64,000 nt of DNA from Thermosipho sp. (in: thermotogales). Its GTDB lineage: Bacteria > Thermotogota > Thermotogae > Thermotogales > Fervidobacteriaceae. Below, piece by piece: positions 27,939 to 41,842 of the stretch. The position numbers and the translations under genes are program-made. Position 1 is the stretch's first letter; each line of letters opens with the position of its first letter. The notes below the pieces were generated by a model that was given only the letters and a program-made list of their open reading frames with translations, did no database searches and was not told the origin of the DNA. The stretch is from assembly GCA_017656335.1 (NCBI GenBank), contig JACDOA010000002.1, positions 248,001-312,000 of the forward strand, written 5' to 3'.

Positions 27939-27955
27939 AAAGATTACCTCCTTTA

Positions 27956-32636: not shown

Positions 32637-32670
32637 TATAAGGCGAATTGATTAAAGGAGGGAGGTATTT

Positions 32671-39214: not shown

Positions 39215-39862
39215 CTATACTTTTCTCTTATAAAGGATAATTTGAATTCTATCAGATACATCTTCAGAAGTATCTGAAATGTCTGCTATTCTGTGGACAA
39301 GCTTTTTTAATTGAATTTTTTCTGCTAAAGGAATATCAAGAGAAAATATTTTTCTTATTGTATCTCTTTCAATCTCATCTGCTTCGTGTTCGAATTTTTC
39401 AGTATCTGTTATTTTTTGACTTGCACTATCGAAATCTTCAAACATTTCTTTGGCGGCATCTTTTAATGCCTGGAAAGTTTCCAAGGATTTTTTTGCTAGC
39501 ATTTCAAAATTTTCAAATAATTCGGACGGTATTTTTAAGTTTTGTAGCTCTATTTCATCTGCTACCGTTTCTGTTTTATTTGCTATTTTATCAAGTGATT
39601 CAATTATACCAAGTAAATCTCCTCTAAAATTTGGCAGAAAAGCCCCTGTATACATTTCCATTTCTGCTTTTCTTCTTATTTTATCTGCTGTTGTTTCGGC
39701 CTGCCTTACCACTTCTGAAAGTTCTTTTACTTTTTCATATTCATTGTTTTTCATACTTTGAATGAGTTCTATCATTTTTACTATTGTGTTCTCAATTGAA
39801 TCAAGGTGTTGATAAAATAATTCTATGACCATTTGTTCTTTTTTTCCAAAGAATAAGCTCAT
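39215..39862 (-). CDS. DUF47 (PhoU-like) phosphate transport regulator
   Basis: A 215-aa, highly helical, acidic protein of the DUF47/TIGR00153 family: LFFGKKEQMVIELFYQHL at the start, SLDKIANKTETVADEIE in the middle, and KKLVHRIADISDTSEDVSDRI at the end. Members occur beside PiT phosphate permeases and are thought to regulate them, as here. ATG 39862 lies seven nt after GGAGG. It is 15 nt behind the first PiT gene, in one operon with both. Confidence 0.9.
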   Translation of the reverse strand: MSLFFGKKEQMVIELFYQHLDSIENTIVKMIELIQSMKNNEYEKVKELSEVVRQAETTADKIRRKAEMEMYTGAFLPNFRGDLLGIIESLDKIANKTETVADEIELQNLKIPSELFENFEMLAKKSLETFQALKDAAKEMFEDFDSASQKITDTEKFEHEADEIERDTIRKIFSLDIPLAEKIQLKKLVHRIADISDTSEDVSDRIQIILYKRKV

Positions 39863-39877
39863 TTTCACACCTCCAGA

Positions 39878-40816
39878 TTATATATTTATTTTAAAAACAA
39901 CCTTCAATAATAAGTATAACAAATATGTAATTATTCCTGCAGATATAGGTGTGTTAACCCAGGCACTTACTATTTTTAAAATTATTTTTTTGTTAACCAG
40001 TTTCGAACCTTTAGCATATCCTGCTCCAATAACTGCTCCAACAATTGCTTGGGAAGTAGATACAGGTATTCCTATAAGTGCATATATCCAAACGGTTATT
40101 GATTCCCCCAAAACAGCTATAGCTGCAGAAAAATAATCTAGTTCTATTATTTGTGCTCCAACTGTCATCATTACTTTGTAGCTGTAAGTTAAAACTCCAA
40201 ATCCTATGCTTAAGCCTCCAATTAATGCAGCCATTTGTATTCCTATTGTTTTAGCAAATACACCTGTAATATTAGCTACATTGTTTGCCCCCAGAGAGTA
40301 TGATCCGTATGCTCCTATAATAAGTGTTGCAATGATTATGATCTTTTCTCTTGTATAAACAGATTTTATTTTATTAAACGGGACTGACAACAACTTATAT
40401 GAAAGAAAACTGAAAATTATTCCACCGATTGGTGTTCCTATCCAAGCTAAAATTAATTTTGAAATTATTCCCCAATTCACATTTCCTTCTATTAAACCTA
40501 CTGCAATTATTGAACCAACAATTGCTTGGGATGATGATACTGGAACTCCAAGGTATGTCATTATTGTCATTGTTATTGCCGCCGATAGTACCGAAAGGGA
40601 TGCAAGAGCTAAATTTGATGTTGATATACTGCTTATAGTCTCAAGCCCTTTTGCTCCCCCTGTTAAAGCTCCAACAACAATAAATACAGCTGAAATAATC
40701 GTAGCTGTTCTGTATTTTATTATTCTATTTGAAACTGCTGTTCCAAATATATTTGCAGCATCATTTGCCCCTAATGACCATCCAAAAAATATTGCCGGGA
40801 GAAGGTATATGAAAAT
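39878..40816 (-). CDS. pit: PiT-family inorganic phosphate permease with probable ATT start
   Basis: A 312-aa integral membrane phosphate permease. Conventional starts give only the last 230 residues, but the same frame runs upstream to an ATT at 40816 directly after a TAA. The extra part encodes YLLPAIFFGWSLGANDAANIF and ISAVFIVVGALTGGAKGLE (quoted in part), which align residue for residue with the N-terminus of the paralogue at 40913 (YILPAVLFGWILGTNDSAN). AGGGGTGG lies five nt before the ATT. Both PiT signature repeats (GANDAANI and GANNVANITG) are complete. It is coupled to the DUF47 gene. Confidence 0.85.
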   Translation of the reverse strand: MFIYLLPAIFFGWSLGANDAANIFGTAVSNRIIKYRTATIISAVFIVVGALTGGAKGLETISSISTSNLALASLSVLSAAITMTIMTYLGVPVSSSQAIVGSIIAVGLIEGNVNWGIISKLILAWIGTPIGGIIFSFLSYKLLSVPFNKIKSVYTREKIIIIATLIIGAYGSYSLGANNVANITGVFAKTIGIQMAALIGGLSIGFGVLTYSYKVMMTVGAQIIELDYFSAAIAVLGESITVWIYALIGIPVSTSQAIVGAVIGAGYAKGSKLVNKKIILKIVSAWVNTPISAGIITYLLYLLLKVVFKINI

Positions 40817-40912
40817 TTAAACCACCCCTATTAAAACAATTGTATCTTTTAATATTAACACATCATCTAAGACTTTGAAAAATAAGAAAAGTAAAAAATT
40901 AAAACAAAACAA

Positions 40913-41842
40913 CTAATTTAAAATTTTGAAAAAATAGTAAATGGCAAAAGTTGTTATTCCAGAAAAAACGGGGGTGAAAATCCATGTTGAAACAATTTGT
41001 ATTATTGTTTTCCAATTTGTAAGTTGAGAACCTCTAGCTAATCCAGTTCCAATAACTGCACCAACAGTTGCATGTGAAATTGAAATAGGTATTCCTAGTA
41101 TGGAAAAAATCCAGACAGTCATTGATTGTCCAAGTATTGAAATCGCAGAAGAGAAGTAATCTAAATCTATAATTCGTTTACTAACGGTATACATAACCTT
41201 TTTATTACTTAAAAATGCGCCAAACGCAATGCTTATTCCACCCAGAAATGCTGCATTTTTAATACCTATCTCTTTTGCAAATACACCAGTAATATTAGCC
41301 ACATTGTTAGCGCCAAGGGAGAATGAAGCATATGCTCCAATTATAATAGTGGATAGTAAAATTACTTTTTCTCTTGTGTAAATAGATTTTATTTTATTAA
41401 ACGGTATTGCCAAAAGATTATATAAAATAAAGCTAAGAATTATTCCACTGATCGGTGTTACGATCCATCCTAATATGAGTTTTAGGATTATTTCCCAATT
41501 TACATTTCCTTCTATTAAACCTATTGCAACAATTGAACCAACAACAGCTTGAGAGGAAGAAACAGGAATTTTTAAAAAGTTTAGCATTATAATCATTGTT
41601 AAAGCAGATGCTAGTGTGGATATAGATGCGAGTAATAGGTTTGATGTTGAAACATTACTTATTGTTTCAAGCCCTTTTGCTCCGCCGGTTAATGCTCCAA
41701 TAACAATAAATACTGCTGAGATAATCGTGGCTGTTCTGTACCTTATTATTTTATTTGTAACTGCTGTTCCAAAAATATTTGCAGAGTCATTTGTACCTAA
41801 TATCCACCCAAATAGAACAGCCGGTAATATATAAAAAGTCAA
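40913..41842 (-). CDS. pit: PiT-family inorganic phosphate permease
   Basis: A 309-aa paralogue of the preceding permease with about ten membrane helices. The two PiT signature repeats read LGTNDSANIFGTAV (near 16-29) and LGANNVANITGVFAKE (about 200-215). The first repeat has Thr-Asn-Asp-Ser where the neighbour has Ala-Asn-Asp-Ala. The TTG start follows GGAGTGATT. A tandem duplication with about 70 percent apparent identity; both copies look intact. It imports phosphate by ion symport. Confidence 0.93.
   Translation of the reverse strand: MTFYILPAVLFGWILGTNDSANIFGTAVTNKIIRYRTATIISAVFIVIGALTGGAKGLETISNVSTSNLLLASISTLASALTMIIMLNFLKIPVSSSQAVVGSIVAIGLIEGNVNWEIILKLILGWIVTPISGIILSFILYNLLAIPFNKIKSIYTREKVILLSTIIIGAYASFSLGANNVANITGVFAKEIGIKNAAFLGGISIAFGAFLSNKKVMYTVSKRIIDLDYFSSAISILGQSMTVWIFSILGIPISISHATVGAVIGTGLARGSQLTNWKTIIQIVSTWIFTPVFSGITTFAIYYFFKILN

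Follow-up and report, generated by a model that had tools for sequence, protein, structure and literature searches.

A PiT permease gene of Thermosipho that appears to start at ATT, with ATT or ATA at the same codon in a sister genus

On the minus strand of the 64,000-nucleotide Thermosipho stretch analyzed here (the window), a gene for a PiT/PHO4-family permease raises the question of where its translation begins. Its frame of 312 codons runs from an ATT at 40816 to the stop at 39878. AUU is the start codon of pcnB and infC in Escherichia coli, and to our knowledge AUU and AUA starts have been thought limited to infC and a handful of other genes. The original prediction, that translation starts at this ATT, relied on the lack of ATG, GTG, and TTG in the first 82 codons, and this observation holds, the first canonical codon being ATG 40570 (codon 83). 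These 82 codons had also been taken for the complete N-terminal half of the permease, which is incorrect; they make up 26% of the 312 residues, i.e., the first quarter. We conclude, with a probability of roughly 90%, that the permease is translated from AUU at 40816 by initiation with fMet. The features considered are listed in Table 1.

Table 1. Coordinates of the permease gene, its neighbors, and further genes with ATT starts (window positions unless a contig is named)
Feature	Position	Strand	Remarks
PiT/PHO4 permease gene, 312 aa	39878..40816	-	start ATT 40816..40814; PF01384 E=3.4e-54
Shine-Dalgarno (SD) sequence AGGGGTGG of PiT gene	40822..40829	-	5-nt spacer to ATT; 8 nt in AGGAGG register
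In-frame TAA abutting ATT of PiT gene	40817..40819	-	rules out any N-terminal extension
Tandem PiT paralogue, 309 aa	40913..41842	-	TTG start; PF01384
DUF47/PhoU_div (TIGR00153) protein gene, partner downstream of PiT gene	39215..39862	-	ATG 39862 with GGAGG
Type IV pilin-like protein, leaderless, 111 aa	27603..27938	-	ATT 27938; SD AAAGGAGG 27954..27947, 8-nt spacer
GGDEF diguanylate cyclase, 512 aa	32671..34209	+	ATT 32671; SD AAAGGAGGGAGG 32654..32665
Ogg-type DNA glycosylase	G000:C1:89846-90478	-	ATT start near 90478; named by eye, not by family search

The PHO4 model (PF01384) matches the permease over residues 16-296 with 184.6 bits, against a curated cut-off of 33.7. In this match, and in the DUF47/PhoU_div gene directly downstream, the gene is like other PiT/PHO4 permease genes with a DUF47 partner, and only the start codon differs. 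The signature region GANDAANIFGT lies within codons 1-82. When codons 2-82 were compared with the orthologue of G018, a species of the same genus (g1), dN/dS was 0.085/0.97, versus 0.073/1.65 for codons 83-312; the corresponding values against G015, from the sister genus (g4), were 0.134/1.46 and 0.158/1.62. Judged by these substitution rates, purifying selection acts on codons 2-82 (dN/dS ∼0.09) as strongly as on the remainder of the gene, and these codons are hence translated. Because these codons are protein-coding, the start must precede codon 83. A 5′-damaged pseudogene, or a protein of only 230 aa initiated at ATG 40570, is the reading expected from gene callers limited to ATG, GTG, and TTG. 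We regard it as highly improbable, since codons 2-82 are conserved like the remainder and carry the PHO4 N-terminal signature, and since an AUN start is common to four other species.

The minus strand of the start region reads AGGGGTGG-TTTAA-ATT-TTC-ATA-TAC, where TTTAA (40821..40817) separates the SD sequence from ATT. As had been noted, a TAA directly precedes the ATT and the SD sequence lies 5 nt upstream. Since the TAA abuts the ATT, the start must lie inside the frame, and the SD sequence points at codon 1. The frame upstream of the TAA (FCFNFLLF...VV*) was considered as coding sequence, is absent from relatives, and was taken as chance. The predicted SD pairing for the ATT (−12.1 kcal/mol) is about average for the window genome, G000, in which canonical starts have a median of −11.6. 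The SD spacing of ATG genes peaks at 7 nt, with a range of 6-9, and for most of them falls within 5 to 10 nt; the ATT, at 8 nt, is at a normal distance. No RNA structure beyond chance was found at the start (z = 0.55).

Two other conceivable initiation sites lie close to the ATT, namely, the ATA of codon 3 and a GTG within the SD sequence. The latter would open a mini-ORF (GTG GTT TAA), after which translation would continue at the ATT, either by re-initiation or by reading through the stop. The paralogues in g4 begin at codon 3, and the start is preceded by GTG GTT TAA in G000 and by GTG GTG TAA in G012. However, codon 3 is 14 nt from the SD sequence, beyond the spacing of most ATG genes, and the GTG sits in the SD sequence without one of its own. 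Moreover, the TAA is absent in G013-G015, and codon 1 is ATG or GTG in G016-G019 and Marinitoga lauensis. We consider initiation at either site very unlikely. The ATT is the only reading of the start that fits the TAA, the SD sequence, the conserved N terminus, and the orthologues together, which supports the central claim of the original prediction.

Codon 1 of the PiT gene is ATT in G000. In g4 it is ATT in G013 and G014 and ATA in G012 and G015; in the other g1 species it is ATG (G016 and G017) or GTG (G018); and it is ATG in G019 (genus g5) and in Marinitoga lauensis. GGAGG, GGGGG, or AGGGG is found 8 nt upstream of the start in all five species with an AUN codon. In G012, as in G000, a TAA stands directly before the AUN codon. 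In G013-G015, an in-frame GTG lies within the SD sequence, three codons upstream of the AUN codon and without an SD sequence of its own; this GTG is unlikely to be the start, and in G000 and G012 the AUN codon is the sole formal choice. It had been proposed that orthologues with ATG at the aligned position would point to a local mutation or an error. The outcome is mixed: ATG or GTG is present in three congeners and one other genus, and ATT or ATA in 4/4 species of g4. Because all four g4 species carry ATT or ATA, the AUN codon is a shared state of the PiT gene rather than a local error. G000 is a draft genome of 33 contigs, which leaves room for a sequencing or assembly error at 40814-40816. 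However, ATT or ATA occupies the identical codon in four further species, each with an independent genome, and the pattern recurs in other genes; error was accordingly rejected as an explanation, the chance of it being negligible.

The predicted alignment of the ATT with the start codon of the tandem paralogue was confirmed (IFIYLLPAIFFGW versus (TTG)MTFYILPAVLFGW). In a phylogenetic tree, the paralogue of G000 groups with the g4 paralogues in a clade with support of 99/99. From this topology, the PiT duplication looks older than the split of g1 and g4, so that the second copy would have been lost in G016-G018. The branch order among the g1 species is left open by the PiT tree, with which a single origin or several origins of the AUN start would both fit. 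Among 103 genomes of the class, two PiT matches at E ≤ 1e-90 were found only in G000 and the four g4 genomes. For the nine orthologues read in g1, g4, and g5, the AUN-started PiT genes are exactly those in genomes with the second copy, an association of 5/5 versus 0/4 among species that are phylogenetically linked. A second copy that makes weak initiation tolerable, or useful for dosage, would explain this distribution; relaxed constraint after the duplication would explain it as well. In NCBIfam, the top-scoring model for both copies (39878..41842, minus strand) is that of a CysP-type sulfate permease. Because this match is far below the cut-off, the substrate is uncertain and may be phosphate or sulfate.

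Scanning the window for genes without a canonical start yielded two more real ones, both beginning with ATT and both overlooked in the original prediction. The first encodes a protein with a pilin-like N terminus that lacks a leader (INYIEVLIAILILGIAI...). Its start codon coincides with the residue that normally comes first in the mature protein (fM-NYIEVLIAILILG), leaving no prepilin leader, and the protein has no match in Pfam or NCBIfam. The start is ATT, ATT, ATT, and ATA in the four g1 species and ATG, GTG, or TTG in g4, g5, and g2. The second is the GGDEF diguanylate cyclase gene, whose first canonical codon is TTG 32713, where the ORF list begins the gene, 14 codons late. Its start is ATT in G000, G017, G013, G014, and G015 and ATC in G018, amounting to AUN starts in six species of two genera (g1 and g4); several g2 genomes have a canonical start. 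The G018 copy of this gene is broken by several stops.

Outside the window, the Ogg-type DNA glycosylase gene starts with ATT in G000 and G016, with ATA in G017 and G018, and with canonical codons in relatives outside g1; an in-frame GTG overlaps the SD sequence in G016-G018 and is missing in G000. Sampled stretches gave further candidates, which were named by eye: an LDH-like gene (ATA in G014, ATG in G003) and a DUF554-like gene (ATA in G019, ATG in G014). An ABC ATPase gene, likewise named by eye, has ATA at both G019:C1:1951985 and G000:C1:211974, with no canonical codon near the aligned ATA, and TTG in G003. As a positive control of the method, infC starts with AUC in g1, g4, and g5 and with AUU in g2 and g3, at the same 8-nt spacing. 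Several short coding fragments without starts resemble decayed genes (G000:C1:111000-115500, C2:68765, and 115044).

The frequency of AUN starts was estimated from sampled stretches in which starts were anchored on orthologues, a rough count that misses pairs with AUN in both genes. Of ∼780 comparisons for G000, G014, G015, and G019, 3 (∼0.4%) had an AUN codon where the start aligned, with few other non-canonical codons there; for G003 the count was 0 of ∼120. As a rough estimate, the AUN class would be small, at about 0.5% of genes. An initial scan of SD slots gave p = 0.02 (G015) and p = 0.01 (G014) and is not robust, adjacent codons of one SD sequence having been counted together; a stricter scan detected no significant genome-wide AUN excess in any sample.

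Initiation at the PiT AUU would proceed by ordinary means. Strong SD pairing at a normal distance would position the 30S subunit, fMet-tRNA with the ordinary CAU anticodon would pair with the first two bases of AUU, and the full 312-aa permease would be made with fMet as residue 1. The third-position mismatch would be expected to lower the initiation rate, and initiation is, by analogy with E. coli pcnB and Staphylococcus aureus ccpN and cvfC1, probably attenuated. An unusual initiator tRNA was considered as the cause of AUN starts and rejected: among the 30 of 44 tRNA loci of G000 that were examined, the initiator is normal, with CAU, a GGG/CCC anticodon stem, and a U1-U72 mismatch. The start may also be sensitive to IF3, and a set of genes that sense IF3 is possible.

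The PiT gene is like E. coli pcnB and infC in that AUU is the sole possible start, is driven by an SD sequence, and has the whole conserved N terminus downstream; in the genomes analyzed here, infC itself starts at AUC or AUU with the spacing seen in the PiT gene. Unlike the products of pcnB and infC, the permease is a membrane transporter that is not known to be connected with IF3 or with RNA metabolism. In S. aureus, cvfC1 (AUU) and ccpN (AUA), which have extended SD sequences, yield in poor medium ∼10% of what AUG gives (PMC13009471). These starts, like that of the PiT gene, are shared among relatives and lie behind a strong SD sequence. The genes differ, and those of S. aureus were established by ribosome profiling and reporters (PMC13009471), whereas the PiT start is identified by comparison. 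Replacing the ATG of Listeria rsbW with ATA or ATT raises SigB activity, the effect that a lower amount of RsbW would predict (PMC13068326). On comparative grounds, we group the PiT gene with pcnB, ccpN, and cvfC1, among the genes in which an AUU or AUA start is conserved.

Why AUN codons persist at these genes can be read in two ways, both of which accept initiation at AUU. AT-biased mutation (AUG to AUA or AUU) could have left AUN starts behind as neutral remnants that have no regulatory role and are tolerated through the strong SD pairing of Thermotogae, an explanation to which we give about even odds. The GC content is 30.5% in G000 and 31% in g4, compared with 39.5% in G003 (g2), where AUN was found only in infC. 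Strong SD pairing and ribosome binding site energies are known for Thermotogae (PMC3636130) and may make AUN starts bearable, the SD sequence of the PiT gene being ordinary for G000. In addition, ATT and ATA swap between species, and the lack of ATG in the AUN groups is not significant given the rarity of G at third positions. Against neutrality, AUN is kept at the same few genes in several species and two genera, although one base change restores AUG. Alternatively, the PiT, leaderless pilin-like, diguanylate cyclase, and Ogg-type genes could form, together with infC, a group under joint tuning by IF3 or by initiation fidelity, in which the PiT case would represent dosage throttling after the tandem duplication; we advance this idea tentatively and think it rather unlikely.

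What seems new is that the ATT/ATA start of the PiT gene is maintained in a sister genus and accompanied by further AUN-started genes, as a weak start signal. Several unrelated genes would have kept AUU and AUA starts in more than one species and genus, in AT-rich genomes with strong SD pairing. Annotation confined to ATG, GTG, and TTG truncates or loses such genes, the PiT gene being shortened by 82 codons and the pilin-like gene losing the greater part of its length. In close relatives, one and the same gene occurs naturally with an ATG or an AUN start, a contrast by which selected and merely tolerated weak starts may be told apart.
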